Source: Gammaproteobacteria bacterium (GTDB lineage Bacteria > Pseudomonadota > Gammaproteobacteria > Burkholderiales > Gallionellaceae). From it: DNA of 64,000 nt. Shown here one piece after another: positions 534 to 12,365 of this stretch. Below the pieces are notes generated by a model, which had not been told where the DNA came from, did not search any database, and worked only from the letters and a program-made list of their open reading frames with translations. Each line of letters opens with the position of its first letter. The stretch's first letter is position 1. Both the position numbers and the translations under genes were made by a program. Where the stretch lies: the NCBI GenBank assembly GCA_018813765.1, contig JAHJBC010000006.1, positions 558,001 to 622,000 of the forward strand, written 5' to 3'.

Positions 534-613
534 GTATGGCGCAATAACCAACGGGCATTGCGCCATTCAGTGTTAAACATACGGTGCAATGCGCTACGCT
601 TATTGCACCCTAC
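534..613. repeat. REPIN: two inverted REP hairpins upstream of moeA
   Basis: Two imperfect palindromes of 27 bases face each other. The left (538-564) has arms GGCGCAAT/ATTGCGCC and the right (583-609) has arms GGTGCAAT/ATTGCACC. The right unit is flanked by CTAC (610-613), the complement of the GTAG guide tetranucleotide of RAYT-type REPs; the left is preceded by GTAT. The arrangement matches the repeats around the RAYT gene at 10083-10613 and at 11429-11510. It sits in the leader of moeA and would form RNA hairpins there. Confidence 0.85.
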
Positions 614-4057: not shown

Positions 4058-5161
4058 TTGAGAAACATAAGGACTTTGCTGGCAGCTTTTGCTTTTATCG
4101 TCTGCATGCCTGCGTTCGCGGATGAGGCGAAGGACCCCTTCCTGGATATCGCCGCAACCTACAAGGCCGCAAATCCCAAGCCTGAACTTTCCGAAGAAGT
4201 GCGCAAGTACAAGGTGCAGGCCGAATTCATGGTGGATGAAAAACAGGCCGACCGGGCGATCACGCTGTATGGCAAGGCGCTGGACATCGCGCCGTGGTGG
4301 CCGGAAGGGCACTACAAGCTCGGGCTGTTGCAGGGCGAGAAAAAAAACTATCGCCTCGCGATGGGTGAGATGAAGCGCTATCTGCTGCTCGCACCGGACG
4401 GCGAATTTGCGCGCGCCGCGCAGGACAGGATTTATCAATGGGAAGTGGTCGTGGAACCGGTCGCGGGGAAAACGTTCCGTGACTGTCCTGAGTGCCCCGA
4501 GATGGTCGAGTTGCCTGCTGGCAGTTTCGACATGGGCTCAGCCAAAGGAGAGGCCAACGAGAAGCCCGTGCACCGCGTCTCCATCGCCAGGCCTTTTGCC
4601 ATCGGCAAGACCGAAGTGACACAGGCGCAGTGGCAAGCCCTGATGCGCAACAACCCGAGCAACTTCGAAGCCTGCGGCGACGACTGTCCGGTGGAGCAGG
4701 TGAGCTGGGACGATGCGCAGGCTTACATCAAAAAACTCAACGAAAAGACCGGCAAGCAATACCGCCTGCCGACCGAGGCCGAGTGGGAATATGCCTGCCG
4801 CGCCGGGATGAGTTTCGAATATTGCGGCAGCGATTTCGCCGACAAGGTGGCGTGGAGCAACCAGAACAGCGGCAGCTTCTTCTTCAATTCGCCGCATCCG
4901 GCGGCAAGCAAGGAGCCGAATGCCTTCGGCCTGTATGACATGAGCGGCAATGTATGGGAGTGGGTCGAAGACACCTACCTCCCCAACTATGAAGGCGCCC
5001 CGGCTGACGCCAGTGCACGCGTGGACGGCTCGATGCGGGTGCTGCGCGGCGGCTCCTGGGGCAGGGATCCCAAATACAGCCGCGCATCCGCGCGTATCCG
5101 CCACAGTTCGAATTTCCGCGATTTCAGCCACGGCTTCCGGGTGGCGCTGCCGCTGCAATAA
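4058..5161 (+). CDS. Secreted SUMF1/formylglycine-generating-enzyme-family protein with TPR-like segment
   Basis: Translation probably starts at TTG 4058, which has an AAGGAG ribosome site six bases upstream and gives a clean signal peptide (MRNIRTLLAAFAFIVCMPAFA). An upstream in-frame start at 3959 would bury this signal. Residues about 45-130 resemble a TPR pair (DRAITLYGKALDIAPWWPEG, YKLGLLQGEKKN). Residues about 145-367 are an FGE-sulfatase domain: MVELPAGSFDMGS, GKTEVTQAQW, YRLPTEAEWEYACRAG, GLYDMSGNVWEWVED, RVLRGGSW and HGFRVAL. Many members of this domain family are not true formylglycine enzymes. No sulfatase gene is nearby, so the function stays open. Confidence 0.82.
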   Translation: MRNIRTLLAAFAFIVCMPAFADEAKDPFLDIAATYKAANPKPELSEEVRKYKVQAEFMVDEKQADRAITLYGKALDIAPWWPEGHYKLGLLQGEKKNYRLAMGEMKRYLLLAPDGEFARAAQDRIYQWEVVVEPVAGKTFRDCPECPEMVELPAGSFDMGSAKGEANEKPVHRVSIARPFAIGKTEVTQAQWQALMRNNPSNFEACGDDCPVEQVSWDDAQAYIKKLNEKTGKQYRLPTEAEWEYACRAGMSFEYCGSDFADKVAWSNQNSGSFFFNSPHPAASKEPNAFGLYDMSGNVWEWVEDTYLPNYEGAPADASARVDGSMRVLRGGSWGRDPKYSRASARIRHSSNFRDFSHGFRVALPLQ

Positions 5162-8429: not shown

Positions 8430-9082
8430 ATCTGCGGCTGGCTGGCATCGGCATGACCTCAGCGCGCACGCGCGGCAGACTCATCGAGCGTTTGCGCAGC
8501 GAAGGCATCAAGGACGAAGTCGTGCTGGCGGCGATGAACGAGATCCCGCGCCACATCTTCATCGACGAAGCACTGGCGACACGCGCCTACGACGACGTGT
8601 CGTTGCCCATCGGCCACGGCCAGACCATCTCGCAACCGTATATCGTCGCGCGCATGACCGAAGTGCTGCGCAACGGCAAACAGCTCGGCCGCGTGCTGGA
8701 GATTGGCACCGGTTGCGGCTACCAGGCTGCGGTGCTGGCCAAGGTGGCGAAGGAGGTCTATTCCATCGAGCGCATCCAGCCGCTGCACGAGCGCGCGCGC
8801 AAGACGCTGCGCGAACTGAAGATATTCAACGTCAACCTGCGTTATGCGGACGGTTCGGCGGGCCTGCCCGATGCCGCGCCTTTCGACGGCATCATCATGA
8901 CCTGCGCCGCGCCCGCGCTGGTTGCTACCCTGCGGGAGCAACTGACAGTGGGTGGTAGAATGGTTCTGCCGGTGGGAACGCAGGAGCAGCATCTGTATCT
9001 CATCGAGCGCGACGAGAGCGGTTATCACGAAAGCCGCCTGGAGGAAGTCAGATTCGTACCGCTGATGATGGGAAAGGCATGA
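8426..9082 (+). CDS. pcm: Protein-L-isoaspartate O-methyltransferase
   Basis: Pcm uses S-adenosylmethionine to methylate L-isoaspartyl residues and so repairs aged proteins. The sequence shows the N-terminal helix [19 protein letters not shown], the [15 protein letters not shown] substrate motif and the SAM-binding motif [13 protein letters not shown], and ends RFVPLMMG. The GTG at 8426 sits six bases after GGGAGA and gives a GTGA overlap with surE. An ATG at 8408 in the same frame is the alternative start. It lies between surE and nlpD in the classic stress cluster. Confidence 0.93.
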
Positions 9083-10026
9083 TCAAACAGAATCCGCAGT
9101 GGATGTGCCTGGCGCTGGCAGTGCTGGTGCTGGCCGGGTGCATGACGCCCGCTTCCGGCGGCCGCCGCGCACCGGTCATGGAATACGGTGCCGGCAGGCA
9201 GCCGGTTGCCGCAATACCGGCCCCGGACAAGCGGCCGGTGATGGATTCCGAGTACGAGGCCGTCAAGCGTTTCCATGTGGTGCAGAAGGGCGACACGCTC
9301 TACAGCATCGCCTTCGTCAACGGGGTGGACTACCGCGACATGGCCGAATGGAACCGGCTGGACGATCCGGCGGCGATCAAGATCGGCCAGCGGCTGGAGA
9401 TTCGCGTCCCGGTGTCTGGATCGTCCGGCAAGGACGTTCCCATGCCGCTGATGGCATCGCAAGTGCCAGATCCGATCGAGGTGAAGAGCTACCCCAAGGT
9501 CGGCAAGCTGGCCTATACCGAGCAGGCACTGGCGCGCGCCGAACAGTTGCAGAAAGGCCCGGTCAAGGCACGGCCCGTGAAATCGGCTGAGGCATCACCT
9601 CCCGTTCCCGTCAAATATCCGCTCCCCGCTCCGCGACCCGAGAACGACAGCCCGCTGCAATGGCAGATGCCAGCCAGGGGTAGTCTGATCTCTGGTTTCT
9701 CCGAGGGCGACAACCGCAAGGGTGTGGACATCGCCGGTATGCGCGGCCAGCCGATACAGGCGAGCGAGGCAGGCAAGGTGGTGTACAGCGGCAGCGGTTT
9801 GCGCGGTTACGGCAAGCTCGTCATCATCAAGCACAACGCGACCTACCTCAGTGCCTATGCCCACAACGACAAGATCATGGTGAAAGAAGGCCAGAACGTG
9901 AGCAAGGGCCAGAAGATCGCCGAGATGGGCAGCTCCGACGCCGATAGGGTCAAACTGCATTTCGAGATCCGCAAGATGGGCAAGCCGGTCGACCCGGCGA
10001 AGTATCTGCCCTTGGCAAAATCGTAG
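9079..10026 (+). CDS. nlpD: Murein hydrolase activator NlpD (LysM, degenerate M23 lipoprotein)
   Basis: NlpD is an outer-membrane lipoprotein that activates amidases at the division septum. The protein has 315 residues: lipobox LVLAGC at the N-terminus, a LysM domain (FHVVQKGDTLYSIAF through GQRLEIRV), a Pro-rich linker and a C-terminal M23 domain (GSLISGFSEGDNRKGVDIAG, YLSAYAHNDKIMVKEG, KLHFEIRKMG). The catalytic HxxxD and HxH residues of active M23 peptidases are replaced, as in other NlpD proteins, so it should activate rather than cut. It overlaps pcm by ATGA. Its TAG stop lies inside the GTAG of the adjoining REP. rpoS, the usual next gene, is absent. Confidence 0.93.
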   Translation: MIKQNPQWMCLALAVLVLAGCMTPASGGRRAPVMEYGAGRQPVAAIPAPDKRPVMDSEYEAVKRFHVVQKGDTLYSIAFVNGVDYRDMAEWNRLDDPAAIKIGQRLEIRVPVSGSSGKDVPMPLMASQVPDPIEVKSYPKVGKLAYTEQALARAEQLQKGPVKARPVKSAEASPPVPVKYPLPAPRPENDSPLQWQMPARGSLISGFSEGDNRKGVDIAGMRGQPIQASEAGKVVYSGSGLRGYGKLVIIKHNATYLSAYAHNDKIMVKEGQNVSKGQKIAEMGSSDADRVKLHFEIRKMGKPVDPAKYLPLAKS

Positions 10027-10671
10027 GGCGCAATAACCGAAGGGCATTGCGCCGGATGGGAATCCTATGACTTTCCCCTTCCATGCCTGACTACCGCCGC
10101 GCCTGGCATCCGGGCGGAACCTGGTTCTTCACTGTCAACTTGCTGCAACGGCAAGGCAATGACCTGTTGATTCGGCACATCGAAACACTGCGCGCCGTGG
10201 TCAAATCGGTGCAGCAACGCCACCCGTTCCGGATTCATGGCTGGGTGGTATTGCACGAACACCTGCATTGCGTGATCGAATTGCCACCCGGAGATACGGA
10301 CTTCGCGACCCGCTGGCGGCTGATCAAGATGGACTTCTCCAAAGCCCTGCCTCGCACCGAAAGGATATCGGCCGTGCGCACCCGCCGCGGTGAGCGCGGC
10401 ATCTGGCAGCGGCGTTATTGGGAACACCTGATCCGGGATGAGCGCGACTATCGGGCGCATATGGATTACGTGCATATCAACCCGCAGAAACATGGGCTGG
10501 TCGAGCGTGTGGCAGAATGGCCTTATTCAACGTTCCATCGGCTGGTTGCCCAAGGCATTTATCCGGCAGACTGGGCGGGCGGAAGCGAAGGCGAGTTGGG
10601 ATATGGTGATTAGCTTCCGGTGTTGAGTGCGGACACATCCGGCGCAATGCCCGTTGGTTATTGCGCCCTAC
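10023..10671 (+). mobile_element. REPtron: RAYT gene framed by inverted REP sequences
   Basis: The unit runs from GTAG plus hairpin REP (10023-10053) through the RAYT gene to an inverted REP plus CTAC (10641-10671). Both REPs have perfect 8-base arms GGCGCAAT/ATTGCGCC, and the right one is an exact reverse complement of the REP at 538-564. GTAG next to the hairpin is the guide tetranucleotide type known for RAYT-associated REPs. It lies between nlpD and a DUF3800 gene. No target duplication is visible, as expected for Y1-type transposition. Confidence 0.85.
10083..10613 (+). CDS. REP-associated tyrosine transposase (RAYT, Y1/IS200-like)
   Basis: RAYTs are single-strand-specific HUH nucleases that bind and cleave REP hairpins and are thought to mobilise REPINs. 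The protein has 176 residues and shows the N-terminal [16 protein letters not shown] strand, the HUH motif in [12 protein letters not shown] (His60, His62), the [19 protein letters not shown] segment typical of RAYTs and the catalytic Tyr129 in [14 protein letters not shown]. All key residues are present, so it should be active. It is a single gene with no accessory TnpB, flanked by its own REPs, and the same REPs form short REPINs elsewhere in the window. Confidence 0.93.
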
Positions 10672-10703: not shown

Positions 10704-11423
10704 ATGGGATTGATTGAAGCATATTTTGATGCCAGCGGTACGCATAGCGATGCCAAGGATTTATGCCTTGCTGGATATCTCTTCAAACAGGATGCTGCCA
10801 CCGCGTTTGATGAGGACTGGCGATGTATGCTCGGCAGGTATGGATTGCCATACTTCCATATGAAGGAGTGCGCTCACGCTACAGGTGTGTTCAAAACCCT
10901 CGGGCTTGAAGGCTCCGACCTTGCTGCGCGTGAAGCGATAGATTTGATCAAGCGCTACGCATCCCAGGGAATCGCCTTCACCGTTGACAAGTCAATTTCG
11001 GCCGAACTTCGCAAGGGCAGCATGTGGAAGAACGAATATTCGTTCATCGTTGGTCAGGTCTTCTTTGCGATCAGAGACTTTGCTTTAGCCGATGAATCCA
11101 AAAGTGAGGTAGCCTGTTTATTTGAGAATGGGGACGATGGACGAGGCCAAGCGGTTGAGGCTGCTCAATTGATCCTCAAACAGGTCGATTTTCGAGAGAC
11201 ATGCCGAATCTCATCGTTTAAGTGGGCTGACCAGAACAAAGAGACGCCTCTGCAAGCGGCGGATATGCTCGCCTGGCACGTAAATTTGTGGCGCAGGAAG
11301 CGGCGAAATGGCACGCTTAAGAAGCGCGGGGACTTTAAGAGTCTGCTCGAAGTTCCCATGATTTACCATCATTGGGACCGATCATCCGTCGATTATCTGA
11401 AGGCAATGCGAGCATCTCGGTAA
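10704..11423 (+). CDS. DUF3800 domain protein
   Basis: The protein has about 239 residues from the ATG at 10704, which has an AGGGA site; a longer frame starting at 10620 runs through the REP and is rejected. The N-terminus (EAYFDASGTHSDAKDLCLAGYLF) and the C-terminal TPLQAADMLAWHVNLW match the DUF3800 pattern, a family with a predicted RNase-H-like fold whose conserved acidic residues sit at both ends. The biochemical role is not established. By eye the gene is more AT-rich than its neighbours and it lies between REP elements, which suggests recent gain. Such genes are often found near mobile or defence DNA. Confidence 0.75.
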   Translation: MGLIEAYFDASGTHSDAKDLCLAGYLFKQDAATAFDEDWRCMLGRYGLPYFHMKECAHATGVFKTLGLEGSDLAAREAIDLIKRYASQGIAFTVDKSISAELRKGSMWKNEYSFIVGQVFFAIRDFALADESKSEVACLFENGDDGRGQAVEAAQLILKQVDFRETCRISSFKWADQNKETPLQAADMLAWHVNLWRRKRRNGTLKKRGDFKSLLEVPMIYHHWDRSSVDYLKAMRASR

Positions 11424-11428
11424 CCAGC

Positions 11429-11510
11429 GTAGGGCGCAAACCAACGGGCATTGCGCCGCATGATGTGATGCCCGTATCCGGCGCAATGCGCTATGCTTAT
11501 TGCGCCCTAC
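11429..11510. repeat. REPIN between DUF3800 and radical SAM genes
   Basis: The left REP (11433-11457) is preceded by GTAG and differs from the 538-564 unit by loss of two bases next to the left arm. The right REP (11480-11506) has perfect GGCGCAAT/ATTGCGCC arms and is followed by CTAC. The orientation is the same as in the moeA REPIN and in the pair around the RAYT gene. It lies in the leader of the downstream gene. Confidence 0.85.
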
Positions 11511-11522
11511 ACTGTTATTGCC

Positions 11523-12365
11523 ATGACTGAAATGCCAACACTGAATGCCACCGACCATAGCCGCGACAGCGCCGGTCTGCGCTATGTCTATCCGGTGATA
11601 TCGCGCCGCGCCGGCGGGGTCTCCATCGGCATCAACCTCAACACCAACAACGCCTGCAACTGGCGCTGCATCTATTGCCAGGTGCCGGAGCTCACGCGCG
11701 GCACCGCGCCACCGGTCGATCTGGCTTTGCTGGAAAAAGAACTGACGGGTTTTCTGTACGAGTTGCAGCACGGCGACTTCATGCAGCACGTGCCGCCCGA
11801 GGCGCGCCGCATCAACGACATCGCGCTCTCCGGCAACGGCGAATCCACCAGCGCGCAGGAGTTCGGAGAGGTCATCGAACTGGTGGGCAGGATCAAACCC
11901 GCCGAACTCAAGCTGGTGTTGATCACCAATGGCAGCCTGATGCAGCGCGACAACGTGCAACAGGGCCTGCGCCGCATGGCGCAGTTGAACGGCGAGGTGT
12001 GGTTCAAGCTGGACCGCGCCAGCGCGGCGGGCATGGCGCTGCTCAACGATACGAAGATGACGATGGACAAGGTGCGGCAGAACCTGGTCACCGCGATAGA
12101 TTGCTGTCCGAACACCTGGTTGCAGACCTGCTGGTTCGCAATCGACGGCGTCGCGCCGACAAGCCGGGACGAGGATGACTATGTGGATTTCGTCAAAGGC
12201 CTGTTGCGCGCCGGTATCAAACCTCAGGGCGTGTTGCTCTACGGATTGGCAAGACCGTCGTTGCAGGAAGAGGCGCCACGCCTGAGCGCCTTGCCGGAGG
12301 CGGAATTGCAACGTTTTGCTGCGCGCCTCCGCACGCTGGGAATGGAAGTGCGGGTGTCGGCCTGA
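11523..12365 (+). CDS. Radical SAM protein of unknown substrate
   Basis: The protein has 280 residues. The radical SAM cluster motif is CNWRCIYC (CxxxCxxC), followed by GNGESTSAQEF in the position of the SAM-binding GGE-type motif and by LVLITNGSL. The start at ATG 11523 is chosen because an upstream in-frame start at 11493 lies inside the REPIN. The substrate cannot be deduced. No obvious partner gene is adjacent: the gene meets lplT end to end, with the two stop codons abutting and no spacer between them. Confidence 0.8.
   Translation: MTEMPTLNATDHSRDSAGLRYVYPVISRRAGGVSIGINLNTNNACNWRCIYCQVPELTRGTAPPVDLALLEKELTGFLYELQHGDFMQHVPPEARRINDIALSGNGESTSAQEFGEVIELVGRIKPAELKLVLITNGSLMQRDNVQQGLRRMAQLNGEVWFKLDRASAAGMALLNDTKMTMDKVRQNLVTAIDCCPNTWLQTCWFAIDGVAPTSRDEDDYVDFVKGLLRAGIKPQGVLLYGLARPSLQEEAPRLSALPEAELQRFAARLRTLGMEVRVSA

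Follow-up and report, generated by a model that had tools for sequence, protein, structure and literature searches.

A REP-framed RAYT gene at several loci in a Gallionellaceae genus, with comparative signs of relocation of the framed unit

Results

A RAYT gene between inverted REPs separates nlpD from a radical SAM gene

We analyzed a 64,000-nt stretch (the window; G000:C12:558001-622000) of a Gallionellaceae genome of 3.14 Mb in 13 contigs (the source genome, G000). An nlpD-like gene with LysM and M23 domains (Pfam; 9079..10026, plus strand) is the left neighbor of an insertion in which a RAYT (TnpA_REP) gene encoding 176 amino acids (10083..10613, plus strand) lies between a left REP (10023..10053, plus) and a right REP (10641..10671, minus). 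A DUF3800 gene (Pfam; 10704..11423, plus) fills the interval between this frame and the next REPIN (11429..11510), which directly precedes the right neighbor, a radical SAM-like gene (11493..12365, plus; 25 bits, below the cut-off of 29.5) whose first ATG past the REPIN is at ~11522.

The RAYT protein matched NCBIfam NF047646 in a profile search (E 1.5e-57; 193.5 bits, cut-off 80) and a solved relative, E. coli TnpA_REP (4er8; E 6e-51), with which 85 of 153 aligned residues are identical. As the earlier note on this DNA had read from the letters, the HUH motif (H60-L61-H62, codons at 10260..10268, plus) and the catalytic tyrosine (Y129, codon at 10467..10469, plus) are intact: H60, H62, and Y129 align with H59, H61, and Y115 of the E. 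coli enzyme, for which the portion of PMC8266576 available to us names Y115F as a catalytic mutant. The Pfam Y1_Tnp model gave 20.4 bits, below its cut-off of 23. In the alignment, 13 residues absent from the E. coli protein precede the IWQ motif, roughly in the region of helix C and strand 4. Gallionellaceae, such as Sideroxydans, were among the named relatives. Compared with the RAYT of G008, another member of the genus, the window protein is 93% identical in amino acids, while fourfold sites are only 78% identical, which suggests that the gene is under purifying selection.

No near-identical RAYT copy was found within G000; of five matches in all, the next after the gene itself was 52% identical over part of its length. 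Other Y1 transposase-like genes of this genome lie at C10:552-878, C2:52683-53009, C12:497121-497441, and C12:2-247. The C10 gene lies near a contig end and shows 52% identity to the RAYT across residues 59-165.

The REPs are bulged hairpins of two loop types, dispersed through the genome

The window contains REPs at 534-564(+), 583-613(-), 10023-10053(+), 10641-10671(-), 11429-11457(+), and 11480-11510(-). The earlier note had described three loci, each with a forward and an inverted REP, GTAG or CTAC flanks, and common 8-base arms with one variant. All six REPs were placed as described, and the variant arm at 583, GGTGCAAT, has a complementary partner in ATTGCACC, which preserves pairing there. 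The description fails in two details: the REP at 534 starts with GTAT instead of GTAG, and a 2-nt deletion in the REP at 11429 leaves it with the 5′ arm GGCGCAA.

Each REP consists of GTAG, an 8-bp stem, an AA/GC bulge, an inner 2-bp stem, and a small loop. Across 153 REP contexts, the inner pair was C-G in 81 (type A) and G-C in 68 (type B), so that the two types differ by a compensatory substitution. Paired variation is likewise seen in the outer stem (C-G in 104 of 153, T-A in 43). The AA/GC bulge, which the E. coli enzyme requires according to the available part of PMC8266576, was kept in 148 of the 153 distinct contexts, a count that the search pattern itself favors. When folded, A-type REPs form the bulged hairpin and so conform to the long bulged REP expected of subclass 2.2 (group 2); the B-type REP has a similar lowest-energy fold, but its centroid structure opens the inner stem. 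The G.ATG tail that follows the REP is conserved. The bases preceding GTAG are weakly biased, with C or T occupying position -1 in 84% of the 153 contexts, in which no clear target motif could be read.

The motif that the earlier note proposed to count lies well above background. The 27-nt palindrome (up to 2 mismatches) was found five times in the window, compared to a mean of 0.10 in shuffled sequences, and none of 100 shuffles reached five. The whole genome held 15 exact-arm palindromes, while the reversed pattern gave 0. A covariance model matched at least 25 REPs in G000 at E≤0.01, with 150 of 2770 first-look candidates scored. Thus, the RAYT-associated REPs are dispersed through the genome and are not confined to the RAYT locus.

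REP type tracks RAYT identity

We collected 99 RAYT loci and scored REPs within about 260-300 nt of the gene. Of 36 loci with at least 70% RAYT identity, 29 had the window REP type next to the gene (2/2 at 90% or more, 9/10 at 80-90%, 18/24 at 70-80%), as did 11 of 49 at 60-70% and one of 14 at 40-60%. REP type thus tracks RAYT identity, and the window RAYT is not far diverged from the REPs that it neighbors. Within the subclade of G011, L024, L064, L066, and L057 have a REP arm lengthened by a single base (GGCGTCAAT or GGCGACAAT) on one or both sides. This form follows the RAYT protein tree, and three such loci were scored as misses in the count above.

The number of REPs also differs among the 34 genomes of the genus (150 first-look candidates scored per genome). 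Genomes with a RAYT of the window clade contained 25 (G000), 13 (G008, at 73% completeness), 27 (G021), and 30 (G011) REPs, while the 30 others contained 0-17, with a median of 3 (Mann-Whitney p 0.001, ignoring relatedness and completeness). Counts among the latter include 17 in G003, 16 in G005, 13 in G014, and 12 in G026, indicating that REPs outlive the RAYT or arrive otherwise.

RAYT frames join like REPs, and most REPINs join unlike ones

The earlier note held that the RAYT is framed by the same REP pair that makes the nearby REPINs. The pair types contradict this. The window RAYT frame is A+A, while both window REPINs are A+B: the REPIN at 534..613, between mobA-like and moeA genes, combines A (plus, with the GTAT head) and B (minus, GGTGCAAT/ATTGCACC), and that at 11429..11510, which is common to G008, combines A (plus, with the 2-nt deletion) and B (minus). 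By eye, all seven REPINs around exact-arm sites in G000 are A+B; REPINs of this genome measure 77-95 nt end to end. Across the whole set of loci, heterotypic pairs make up 35 of the 40 REPINs that could be classified (45 distinct sequences, five unclassified, with some orthologues or tandem copies among them). Of the 28 RAYT frames, 26 could be classified, and 24 of these are homotypic, A+A or B+B (Fisher p 5e-11, ignoring relatedness). Loci that failed a simple start/stop filter, such as L073, L080, and L095 (A/A), were left out of the frames. Several counted frames fit the REP pattern poorly; limiting the set to those with three or fewer edits per side leaves 18, of which 16 are homotypic. 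Since the frame is homotypic and most REPINs are heterotypic, the RAYT unit is not simply a REPIN with an inserted gene. The layout of the frames is also compact, with the left REP starting 52-60 nt upstream of the RAYT start in 21 of 28.

Both RAYTs with an inverted REP on either side and dimorphic REPs in enterobacteria are described in the accessible part of PMC2817692. The contrast between frame and REPIN pair types does not appear in the portions of the literature covered here.

REPINs are present or absent at orthologous sites

As the earlier note had proposed, we compared orthologous loci, aligning four REPIN sites of other genus members (L243, L244, L246, and L247). REPINs were present in some species of the genus and absent in others. 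The REPIN at the L243 site in G014 is common to G003 and missing in G028 and G008, where two genes nearly abut; G007, G011, and G000 have other sequence in its place. The L244 REPIN, also from G014, is missing in G028 and G008, both with other sequence there. Other sequence likewise occupies the L246 site in G007 and G011; for G028, G003, and G000, a search for the two flanks of this site missed one of them. At L247, G007 (GGCGCAAT) and G008 carry REPINs and G000 has other sequence. These patterns fit gain and loss of REPs, and do not by themselves prove action of the enzyme.

Two further observations concern the L247 site. In G011 (L283) and G003 (L270), it holds a REPIN of another family (GTAGGATGGGTTGAGC) whose GTAG falls in the same alignment column as that of G007. 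In G028 (L281), GTAG directly abuts the right REP, as though the left REP together with the spacer had been excised; both REPs are still present in G008.

The window RAYT clade occupies three sites in the genus

RAYTs of the window clade, ~80-93% identical to the window's, were found at three sites: between nlpD and the radical SAM gene (G000 and G008), between GATase and htpG genes (G021), and between PMT_2 and aroC genes (G011). We identified nlpD in 31 of the 34 genomes and compared 30 loci. Within the fetched flank, 27 of the 30 have the radical SAM gene after nlpD, 20 of them within ~25 nt. Only G000 and G008 carry a RAYT there; no match was found in the other 28 loci, some of which are cut by contig ends. 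In G000, the nlpD stop codon TAG lies within the GTAG of the left REP. The stop is TGA in 27 relatives, and the G008 gene ends TCG TAG, with 8 nt more before the GTAG of its REP. As seven other loci hold ~80-180 nt of other sequence between nlpD and the radical SAM gene, this junction is permissive anyway.

At the GATase locus, htpG lies within 150 nt in ten of the 30 genomes compared, three have a 1.0-1.2 kb gap with another gene, and in sixteen htpG was not seen within the fetched flank. Only G021 has the arrangement REP-RAYT-REP-gene-REPIN, and there was no RAYT match in the other 29 loci, some cut by contig ends. At the PMT_2 locus, the other 19 of 20 loci gave no RAYT match, some again being cut by contig ends. 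Chorismate synthase was recognized in four genomes besides G011, none with a RAYT. REPs at this locus numbered one each in G028 and G014, with a degenerate one in G007 and none in G008. The small gene adjoining aroC differs among G028, G014, and G011, and in the PMT_2-aroC region of G014, G007, and G003 (L225, L227, and L228), the REP adjoins a long repeat that has CCGTCGGGGGT...CCCGACGG as its ends.

At all three loci the unit is thus present in some relatives and absent in others, with junctions that lack a clean target scar. When we compared the window unit with units at other loci, similarity stopped at or next to GTAG/CTAC in several (10022-10671 with L053; at 10023 on the left with L052). 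With L051, L054, and L056, similarity stopped inside the unit, short of the REP ends. A second RAYT family, with REP GTAGGATGGGTTGAGC, was present in five genomes at five loci with no flank match (tblastx).

The arrangement REP-RAYT-gene-REPIN recurs at three loci of the genus, with a DUF3800 gene in G000, a PoNi immunity-like gene in G008, and a 188-amino-acid protein without a Pfam match in G021. In the 34 genomes, the DUF3800 gene had, besides itself, one weak match (27% identity, G011). The REP-bounded slot after the RAYT thus contains DUF3800 in the window (10704-11423) and the PoNi-like gene in G008 (L022:388-1242(-)); by eye, the latter is preceded by a short open stretch resembling the tail of another protein. 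We considered a cargo gene as a general rule, and set this aside because, by eye, most neighbors in other-genus loci looked ordinary (L053, L055, L056, L058, L060, L062, L065, L071, L072, and L085).

The RAYT tree conflicts with the core-gene tree

We built a core tree from four genes (nlpD, radical SAM, GATase, and PMT_2) in 27 genomes. In core genes, G008 is nearest to G028, G007, and G014 (0.90-0.93), followed by G011 (0.843), with G000 at 0.767. The RAYT tree conflicts with this order: G000, G008, and G021 group together (100/95), and G011 stands apart with L064, L057, and L066 (100/96). Fourfold sites differ in the same way. Between G008 and G011, 28 of 66 RAYT sites and 323 of 476 core sites are identical (Fisher p 9e-5); between G000 and G021, the counts are 57 of 73 and 300 of 465 (p 0.024). 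These counts were worked back from rounded fractions, and the two tested pairs were picked from six RAYT-bearing pairs. Among the others, the RAYT is below every core gene for G000-G011 and G021-G011, above every core gene for G008-G021, and inside the core range for G000-G008.

A recent transfer between G000 and G008 as sole cause of their common site was considered and is not borne out, as the RAYT shows no higher fourfold identity (0.78 at 78 sites) than the radical SAM piece does (0.80 at 44 sites). On a wider scale, beta- and gammaproteobacterial labels on the RAYT tree required 10 changes, at least 4 forced by well-supported branches, compared to 23 when shuffled (71 of 99 rows, after dropping those of unclear class or under 150 amino acids; class was assigned by record title, and some records are metagenome bins). 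The result favors a degree of inter-class transfer of RAYTs, without being precise.

A 30-nt double hairpin occurs in REP loops

We observed a 30-nt double hairpin (consensus CACCCACAGGGTGCAAGAACCTCTGCGAGG) at the loop position of several palindromes that are REP-like but unrelated. One copy sits in the G021 RAYT unit, within its right REP; by eye, removing the copy leaves a plain REP. Copies lie at L052:3582-3601 and 4290-4309 (core, minus; G021), L057:3558-3577, L287-L316, and L317:1002-1024; around some, such as L291, L296, L297, and L307, there is no evident palindrome. The 20-nt core (up to 2 mismatches) was found in 14 of the 34 genus genomes, with 0 for the reversed control (17 copies in G017, 12 in G021, 6 each in G026 and G005, 4 in G020, 3 in G003, and 1 in G000), and viral contigs gave one match. 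Rfam gave no match at gathering score for five loci with the insert, the best being a microRNA family at 39 bits versus the required 67. A literature text search with the letters of the REP and the insert returned only an unrelated C. elegans paper. The insert looks like a mini-element nested in REP hairpins.

Discussion

By the features tested, the anatomy is that of an ordinary REPtron of subclass 2.2, and comparison gives clear signs of relocation of the framed unit. Sequence comparison documents the anatomy, the catalytic residues, REP-RAYT pairing, REP dispersal, presence and absence of REPINs, and three sites for one clade. The reading that we favor, at a probability of about 0.6, is an E. 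coli-like REPtron whose HUH/Y1 nuclease, encoded between inverted hairpins that it recognizes, would cut REPs and move REPINs and, occasionally, its own A+A unit. The enzyme would cut REPs as single strands, next to the hairpin, with GTAG and the AA/GC bulge as its guides. It would copy or move REPINs, mostly A+B pairs, in trans, and may now and then move its own A+A-framed unit (10023-10671). The observation that underlay the earlier note is confirmed and its reading partly supported. Its phrase "recently active" was itself deduced; as RAYTs of the clade differ from the window's by 7-20% in protein, we see no very recent jump.

REPtron Ec of E. coli (4er8; subclass 2.2, group 2) has, like the window unit, REPs with a GTAG head and AA/GC bulge, and the window RAYT shares the WE and Y.HINP-like motifs given for the E. 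coli subclass in the subclass table (PMC6006769). It differs from the E. coli system in occurring in betaproteobacterial relatives, in the REP stem GGYGCAAT, and in the presence of the unit at several loci. REPs of E. coli number in the hundreds, and ~25 were found in the window genome. The REPINs of Pseudomonas fluorescens SBW25 (PMC3116915) likewise consist of two inverted REPs and are dispersed, while those of the window genome mostly join two loop types (A+B) and have few copies. Elements of the IS200/IS605 type also have a Y1 HUH gene bordered by hairpins and relocate as a unit, whereas the window frame consists of inverted like REPs and its clade has one copy in the genome. A literature search found no title on these Gallionellaceae REPtron loci.

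Because one clade occupies three loci, similarity ends at the REPs for some displaced units, and the RAYT and core trees conflict, our comparisons suggest that the whole REPtron relocates as a unit between related species, contrary to the published view (PMC6006769). The single clade copy in G000, with no near-identical pair in any one genome, speaks against movement of the unit, as does the insertion at one site in G000 and G008, which are not sister species; plain random transposition does not explain this. Moreover, homology that stops at the REPs is partly expected, since REP ends are conserved for function. Similarity that falls short of the REP ends in several units, the missing target scar, the permissive nlpD junction, and REPs in genomes lacking this RAYT weigh on the same side. 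A less probable but serious alternative is that the REPtron is a domesticated, non-mobile gene relocated via horizontal transfer and recombination between scattered REPs or other repeats. Authors who see no mobility prefer ordinary transfer (PMC6006769), the sites are rich in repeats, the L247 junction holds REPINs of different families in different species, and DUF3800 and the PoNi-like gene occupy one REP-bounded slot, as recombination would give. However, the displaced units keep their compact layout, with the left REP at its usual distance from the RAYT start, and REPs of 31 nt are short for homologous recombination. Movement driven by the enzyme seems likelier than recombination, if not by much.

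Vertical inheritance with many losses and rearrangements of neighbors is improbable. In the strains of a 2011 study, RAYT phylogeny was largely congruent with the species, according to the accessible part of that source (PMC3116915), but the conflict between the two trees counts against such descent here. In addition, radical SAM placement after nlpD (27 of 30) and htpG placement within 150 nt of the GATase gene (10 of 30) recur, so that these neighbors are not generally rearranged. That chance palindromes lie beside an unrelated transposase is refuted for practical purposes by the five copies seen versus 0.10 expected, the empty reversed control, and the pairing across genera.

Within the favored reading of an enzyme that moves REPINs and at times its own unit, a more specific proposal is tentative: the REPtron itself may be mobile, with TnpA_REP moving the A...A framed gene, A...B REPINs forming a non-autonomous load, the loop types of the ends marking the product, and REP-bounded slots swapping accessory genes. 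The contrast of homotypic frames (A+A or B+B) with A+B REPINs offers a simple, testable rule for which REP pairs do what. A genus with one REPtron clade at three loci, together with counterparts that do not have it, provides a direct test of REPtron mobility. If only recombination moves the unit, REPtron loci would still be sites of gene turnover.
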